Shown here piece after piece: positions 13,770-14,092 of a DNA stretch of 64,000 nucleotides; the first letter of the stretch is position 1; every line of letters starts with the position of its first letter. Below the pieces are notes generated by a model that saw nothing but the letters and a program-made list of their open reading frames with translations, ran no database searches and was not told the origin of the DNA. This stretch comes from Acidobacteriota bacterium (lineage in GTDB: Bacteria; Acidobacteriota; Terriglobia; Acidiferrales; UBA7541), in NCBI GenBank assembly GCA_003166795.1, contig PMUS01000068.1, positions 1 through 64,000 on the forward strand, in the 5' to 3' direction. A program made the position numbers and the translations under genes.

Positions 13770-13846
13770 CGCGGGGTGGAGCAGCCTGGTAGCTCGTCGG
13801 GCTCATAACCCGGAGGTCGTCGGTTCAAATCCGACCCCCGCAACCA
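13770..13846 (+). tRNA. Initiator tRNA-fMet (anticodon CAT)
   Basis: 77 bases that fold as a canonical cloverleaf: acceptor strand GCGGGG/CCCCGC after an unpaired first C (the C1-A72 mismatch that marks initiator tRNA), D-arm GAGCAGCCTGGTAGCTC, anticodon stem CGGG/CCCG with loop CTCATAA, and T-arm GTCGG-TTCAAAT-CCGAC. The terminal CCA is encoded. The sequence is almost identical to bacterial initiator tRNA. Its 3' portion is repeated twice more downstream. Confidence 0.97.
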
Positions 13847-14092
13847 TTTCCTCCTTCTCGACTTAATTCCCGTAATCCATGAGCCACAAAAATCGGGCTG
13901 TCATTTTCCTGTCGGCCGATTTCATCGGCCCGGCCGAAGGTCGTCGGTTCAAATCCGACCCCGCAACCATCTCTTCCCTCTCGACTTTTTCCCGAAGATT
14001 TATGACCCGCAAGAGTCGGGCTGTCAATTTCCATTCGGCCGATTTCATCGGCCGGGCCGGAGCCCGTCGGTCCAAATCTGATCCCGCGACCA
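13813..14092 (+). repeat. Tandem ~124 bp array carrying the 3' end of tRNA-fMet
   Basis: The T-arm/acceptor end of the tRNA (GTCGGTTCAAATCCGACC to CAACCA) recurs at 13943 and, in decayed form, at 14066, giving periods of 124 and 123 bases. Each of the two full units continues with the same spacer: CTCGACTT, CGGGCTGTCA and an inverted repeat GGCCGAT-TTC-ATCGGCC. The third unit is only the tRNA end. The units have diverged, mostly by substitutions. The layout resembles the tyrT repeat array of Escherichia coli, in which spacer repeats carry the tRNA 3' end. Confidence 0.85.

Follow-up and report, generated by a model that had tools for sequence, protein, structure and literature searches.

The window, which is the whole 64,000-nt stretch of DNA that was analysed, comes from an uncultured soil Acidobacterium (own genome, G000). 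ARAGORN identified a single tRNA gene in it, a tRNA-Met(CAT), which is an initiator tRNA gene because it combines the C1-A72 mismatch with an encoded CCA. It was found that this gene is followed on its 3′ side by two units of 124 and 123 bp, each terminating in a copy of tRNA positions 41 to 77, as listed in Table 1. An earlier note on this DNA had described a tandem array that repeats the 3′ end of tRNA-fMet, and this description was borne out by ARAGORN, Rfam, a direct-repeat search and alignment of the units. The array is single-copy in its own genome, and in a search of positions 12000 to 16000 with Rfam the tRNA alone passed the gathering score, with no further known RNA family. The promoter-like TTGCAG..TAGTAT sequence in front of the tRNA gene is common to three other genomes (G007, G008 and G015); the promoter usual for the family is TTTGACC..TATGATG.

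Table 1. Features at and near the tRNA-fMet locus of the window.
Feature	Position	Strand	Basis
Displaced tRNA-fMet 5′ half (positions 1-43, 88%)	7943..7985	+	sequence
Promoter-like TTGCAG-17-TAGTAT of the intact tRNA-fMet	13735..13763	+	sequence
Intact tRNA-fMet (CAT), CCA encoded	13770..13846	+	ARAGORN; Rfam RF00005, 61.3 bits
Trailer, unit 1	13847..13878	+	sequence
Imperfect inverted repeat ATGAGCC-n-TCGGGCT, unit 1	13879..13899	+	sequence, unit alignment
Hairpin GGCCGAT-TTC-ATCGGCC, unit 1, replacing the anticodon arm	13914..13930	+	sequence
Copy 1, tRNA-fMet 3′ half (tRNA positions 41-77 with CCA)	13934..13969	+	repeat search
Trailer, unit 2	13970..14001	+	sequence
Inverted repeat ATGACCC-n-TCGGGCT, unit 2	14002..14022	+	sequence
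Hairpin CGGCCGAT-TTC-ATCGGCCG, unit 2 (GGCCGAT-TTC-ATCGGCC at 14037-14053)	14036..14054	+	sequence
Copy 2, the worst preserved 3′ half, taken to be the original 3′ end of the host's tRNA-fMet	14057..14092	+	repeat search; empty-site alignment
Original tRNA trailer	14093..14144	+	alignment to G063, G011

The direct-repeat search returned a 123-nt repeat starting at 13836 and 13959 (80% identity) and a 29-nt core at 13810, 13934 and 14057 (100, 97 and 83% identity), and in a gapped alignment the units 13810-13933 and 13934-14057 had 106 of 122 aligned bases in common. Decay rises with distance from the tRNA gene, copy 2 being the worst preserved. Each unit had been said to begin with the T-arm and acceptor end; the acceptor end with its CCA is indeed present, but the copies begin upstream of the T-arm, at tRNA position 41 in the 3′ strand of the anticodon stem, and have no acceptor 5′ strand, D-arm or anticodon loop. 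The spacer hairpin GGCCGAT/ATCGGCC that had been noted in each full unit stands directly before both copies. Hairpin stems are 7 to 8 bp long in both units, with shuffle P values of 0.001 for unit 2 and 0.01 for unit 1, where the longest stem scored was a neighbouring 7-bp pairing and not GGCCGAT/ATCGGCC. In unit 1 the inverted repeat has a 3′ arm identical to the anticodon stem's 5′ strand. The 5′ arm was also considered as a short reading frame (ATGAGCCCG..), and this was rejected on finding that frame and stop are not conserved between the units. A remnant of a group I intron (U at the exon end, G at the insert end) was likewise rejected, with the core absent and the insert too short.

A displaced 5′ half of tRNA-fMet lies 5.8 kb upstream of the intact gene, behind the end of a pseudopilin-like gene, and together with its decayed native promoter it spans 7900-7985. 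Its position looks like the ancestral tRNA-fMet site, and the 5′ displacement suggests an element that entered from the 5′ side; no integrase for such an element was seen in the window. The cargo between the tRNA halves (9597-13344) encodes a collagen-like repeat protein and a second protein of 869 aa, which has five Big_3_5 Ig-like domains and whose C-terminus recurs in part near 8180-8357. The same 5′ displacement with other cargo was observed in G007, and the same left end, CATAAC joined to GCGCCAAACGCC, in G001 and G019.

To establish what preceded the array we used two relatives without one, G063 from another genus of the same family and G011 from the same genus. The distal flank, 14093-14144, aligned to the sequence right after the intact tRNA-fMet gene in both G063 (score 47) and G011 (score 42), the best of 300 shuffles scoring 26, and in G063 the alignment starts at base 1 behind the CCA. 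Therefore, the DNA from the CCA of the tRNA to the CCA of copy 2 is extra DNA, and the last copy represents the original 3′ end of the gene after displacement. As judged from these alignments, the array is evidently an insertion and not an ordinary trailer.

Units in relatives were sought with a sequence-only model of the array unit in preference to a covariance model with hairpin pairs, because the hairpin stems of different units do not line up. The comparison with related genomes that the earlier note had proposed gave full-length matches behind tRNA-fMet in 12 of the 95 genomes from the order, which named hits place as Candidatus Acidiferrales/Acidoferrales within the Terriglobia, the compared genomes being largely draft metagenome assemblies. 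None of 304 further genomes of the class matched, nor did any in a phylum-wide sample except the window's own genome, so that class and phylum genomes without units number about 700 in all. Five stretches were returned from 85,000 bacterial genome records, three of them in Acidobacteriota; those from Chlorobiaceae and Phycisphaeraceae were judged, after inspection, to be unrelated to the array unit. The module was not found in viral contigs. An assembly artefact, also raised earlier, is unlikely because the two units of the window differ by 13% and because independently assembled relatives carry related units.

Across the units the recurrent parts are CGGGCTGnC (invariant in 11 aligned units), a T-rich stretch, the hairpin and GGGGCCGGAGGTCG; the stems vary by species, many units also contain the anticodon arm as an inverted copy, and unit size is mostly 117-130 bp. 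Each copy fits the T-arm type of its own host best in all 11 genomes tested (permutation p 0.0001), which is the pattern that a displaced tRNA end of the host itself would give. The arrays are not all intact: in G055 and G066 a unit sits apart from any intact tRNA-fMet, about 1.7 kb of other DNA splits the array of G010, the hairpin is only 5 bp and no longer than chance in units of G015, G060, G056 and G094, and the T-arms of copies are interrupted by insertions in G010, G049, G056 and G060. In G010 and G056 (L010, L032), REP-like palindromes (CCCTTCG..CTCAGGGC and CCCTTCG..GGGCTCAGGGCAAGC) interrupt the T-loop of displaced tRNA copies, at the position at which the E. coli tyrT repeats break.

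The initiator tRNA had been called an unusual place for such an array. This did not hold up: when the tRNA genes of the same genome were scanned for 3′-half copies within 1 kb, tRNA-Arg(ACG) and tRNA-Asn(GTT) stood out besides tRNA-fMet, with the same layout. Behind tRNA-Asn(GTT), on contig 37 at 118501 (L105), an ORF-less 3′-end copy lies 101 nt downstream; tRNA-Asn elements that do carry a GIY-YIG gene occur in G066 (L245) and in other families. Behind tRNA-Arg(ACG), on contig 38, an 88-codon ORF with a GIY-YIG domain (PF01541, 9e-15) starts about 11 nt 3′ of the tRNA, and the order is tRNA, GIY-YIG ORF, then GGATAGAG[TCCGCC-TGC-GGCGGA]AACCAGAAGG..CCA, in which the hairpin TCCGCC-TGC-GGCGGA substitutes for the 5′ part of the anticodon arm in the tRNA copy. 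The stop codon of the ORF is the TAG within the D-arm copy GGATAG. The tRNA-Arg(ACG) element is a full member of a GIY-YIG/hairpin family. No match to the GIY-YIG protein of this genome was found in phage records.

An unbiased Pfam search of the genus, with UvrC excluded, gave 22 short GIY-YIG ORFs, 12 of which adjoin tRNA genes. We then used a profile built from seven tRNA-adjacent GIY-YIG proteins across the order, with a clade cut-off of >58 bits, and found that 56 of 74 loci lie within 160 bp of a same-strand tRNA gene, a figure that overstates the true rate, partly by ascertainment, because the profile itself came from tRNA-adjacent proteins (the unbiased figure being the 12 of 22). The ORF starts at most 20 nt from the tRNA 3′ end at 41 of the 74 loci. 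The chance expectation for tRNA adjacency is below 1% per locus, and among more distant GIY-YIG proteins outside the clade 5 of 30 are near a tRNA. Where the ORF lies downstream, a 3′-half copy of the same tRNA is recognisable behind it in 38 of 51 elements, and the ORF end overlaps a D-arm copy. The hairpins have a regular form, namely TCCGCC-nnn-GGCGGA for Arg, GGCCGAn-nnn-nTCGGCC for Val, TCCCGAT-n-ATCGGGA for Ile and TCCCGGT-n-ACCGGGA for Ala; the loops vary freely and the stems are kept, with a compensatory change from GG..CC to TC..GA in Val. In a tree based on 82 columns only, the GIY-YIG proteins follow the tRNA (25 label changes) more than the host genus (51 changes in the same rows), and with all labels 40 changes are needed against a shuffled mean of 70. 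Such elements are also present in several further families of the class, and scattered cases come from other classes of the phylum. In the open-access literature, we found no paper on tRNA-adjacent GIY-YIG hairpin elements of bacterial chromosomes.

Elements with a GIY-YIG gene at tRNA-fMet itself were found in G044, G064, G066 and G161, where they form one clade in two families. Their hairpin is TCCCGC..GCGGGA and their breakpoint lies behind CTCATAA; both differ from those of the array units, and therefore the two need not share descent. No fMet-array-type unit with an internal GIY-YIG gene, which would be an intermediate, was found. The fMet units have their own 3′-half copy with CCA, a hairpin before the copy and an empty site in relatives; a GIY-YIG ORF is absent, 124 bp leaving no room for one, and therefore they are filed as related in layout and not as full members.

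Several variants were observed beside these elements. A 5′-side version occurs in G066 and G064 (L150, L226), in the order tRNA-fMet whose anticodon-stem 3′ strand is replaced by a hairpin, GIY-YIG gene, promoter copy and intact tRNA. Upstream of tRNA-Trp, G002, G003, G019 and G065 (L156, L158, L161, L276) carry GIY-YIG ORFs that belong to another subfamily, and in G003 a REP-like CCCTTCGATCCCGCCACTGGCGGGCTCTCAGGGT is immediately 5′ of this tRNA. A further subfamily lies near tRNA-Arg(CCT) and tRNA-Ile (L192, L162), where the ORF is not followed by a tRNA copy; at tRNA-Arg(CCT) it stands between GCTTCGGCTCGGCAAGCCCGTGCAGC repeats.

The likeness to the E. coli tyrT repeats that had been pointed out is a fair one. 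At tyrV of strain K-12 there are three repeats at 178-bp spacing, each ending in 19 nt of the tRNA-Tyr 3′ end after hairpin-bearing sequence, and the tyrT/tyrV repeats (rttR, rtT RNA, tpr), like the fMet array, are tandem units that end in a tRNA 3′ end with CCA and contain hairpins and further tRNA-like pieces. However, the E. coli units are 178 bp with 19 nt of tRNA-Tyr, whereas those of the fMet array are about 124 bp with 36 nt, and the break is in the T-loop in the former and in the anticodon arm in the latter. By these differences in tRNA, unit length and break point, the K-12 tyrV repeats and the fMet array are alike in plan and evidently not homologous. In E. coli strain SK1144 (L333), two tRNA-Tyr genes are followed 16 bp on by a desaturase gene, and the K-12 rttR/tpr repeats seem to be absent. 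A repeat-derived RNA is known in E. coli and would be a prediction for the fMet array. The gross layout shared with tyrT/rttR, the retention of CGGGCTGnC and the hairpin in several genera and the inverted anticodon-arm copies would suit an array maintained for a function, in which read-through of the tRNA transcript gives CCA-ended RNAs of about 124 nt, processed like rtT RNA and retained for a regulatory role, which the anticodon-arm complement ATGAGCCCGA, for example, might mediate. We nevertheless regard this as unlikely, given that the units are patchily distributed and absent beyond the 12 of 95 order genomes, that copy T-arms are broken by insertions in four genomes, that the outer copy of the window is decaying, that the array folds as one RNA no more strongly than shuffles (z -1.45), and that the GIY-YIG relatives have the same layout as ends of mobile elements.

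Integrating elements are well known to restore the tRNA 3′ end and displace the old one, leaving partial tRNA genes (PMC9897764), and the islands and phages that enter tRNA genes by tyrosine integrases resemble the array in this respect. The earlier suggestion of a scar of repeated integration fits the empty-site comparison, and the search for integrase-bearing elements at this tRNA in relatives was successful: tRNA-fMet is an island site, and in G008 a phage integrase gene (PF00589, 7e-21) stands beside it with a 3′ copy about 33 kb away. With the displaced 5′ half in the same window, one may think of attR/attL remnants of successive islands whose interiors were later lost. The scars of such islands are nonetheless different, in that the attR copy of G008 begins inside the anticodon loop, at CTCATAACCC, and has no hairpin, whereas the array copies begin at position 41 behind a hairpin. 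Islands are kilobases long, encode an integrase and leave identity blocks without hairpins, whereas a unit here measures about 124 bp, or about 370 bp where it includes the GIY-YIG gene. There is no integrase inside the units, and the neighbours at 9-18 kb are Ig-like, collagen-like and DUF892 proteins only. Interior deletions would not yield a near-constant unit size and a junction shared by many species, and we consider this the least likely origin. Hardly more probable is that part of a tRNA gene was simply duplicated in tandem and then drifted, no mobile element taking part and the hairpin being a REP-like insertion. Such duplication alone would also produce two units; units are more alike within genomes than between them (87% within G000), and REP-like inserts do occur in copies of G010 and G056. 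It leaves unexplained, however, the same non-tRNA junction in several genera and in a second family, the matching location of hairpins in many further tRNA copies and the association with GIY-YIG genes.

Probably, the array is made up of scars that tRNA-targeting GIY-YIG/hairpin elements left on insertion, or of ORF-less derivatives of them, stacked in succession. In such a process, a small element (about 124 bp) bounded by a tRNA 3′-half copy on one side and by a GC hairpin on the other would enter the tRNA gene at the anticodon arm. The tRNA gene would stay functional because the element supplies a fresh 3′ half, the old one being pushed downstream behind the hairpin, and this may have occurred twice, or once with a later tandem duplication. 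Full members of the family would have the plan 3′ half, short spacer, GIY-YIG gene directly behind the CCA, D-arm/anticodon-stem remnant and hairpin, ending in a tRNA copy with the hairpin in place of the anticodon arm. By analogy of layout, the fMet units are, with somewhat better than even likelihood, miniature derivatives of these elements, most likely ORF-less, miniature or decayed members.

The elements have parallels among other nuclease-linked repeats. The REPIN/RAYT system and other nuclease-linked palindromic repeats are alike in having small hairpin units and a nuclease possibly acting in trans. The enzyme of that system, RAYT, is a Y1 transposase, and its REPs are dispersed in intergenic regions, whereas here the nuclease is GIY-YIG and the target a tRNA gene. 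SegB of T-even phages, a free-standing GIY-YIG homing endonuclease whose gene adjoins tRNA genes, as in the elements here, reportedly cleaves tRNA-containing DNA and causes the tRNA-segB unit to amplify in tandem by recombination, through microhomology that the 5′ end of the tRNA shares with the 3′ end of segB (PMC13096335); the overlap of ORF end and D-arm copy is a similar arrangement. SegB differs in belonging to phage genomes, with full tRNA copies and no anticodon-arm hairpin described. From this analogy we infer cleavage and mobility of the GIY-YIG elements: the enzyme would cut its cognate tRNA gene, and repair over tRNA homology would copy in or amplify the element (cf. SegB, PMC13096335).

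Taken together, it is an evenly balanced proposition that these elements constitute an undescribed class of mobile elements of Acidobacteriota, in which one GIY-YIG gene has diverged into lineages specific to individual tRNAs (Val, Ile, Ala, Arg, Ser, Gly, Asn, fMet and others). Its members would insert into the anticodon arm, restore the gene from their own end, use the tRNA promoter, in several cases borrow a stop codon from the D-arm copy, and mark the displaced half with a hairpin, and ORF-less miniatures such as the fMet array would depend on them in trans. If this is true, it would give a role to short GIY-YIG proteins beside tRNAs, account for the hairpin-bearing partial tRNA copies that follow tRNA genes, possibly including the E. 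coli tyrT array, and mean that tRNA genes are also invaded by a route that needs no integrase.
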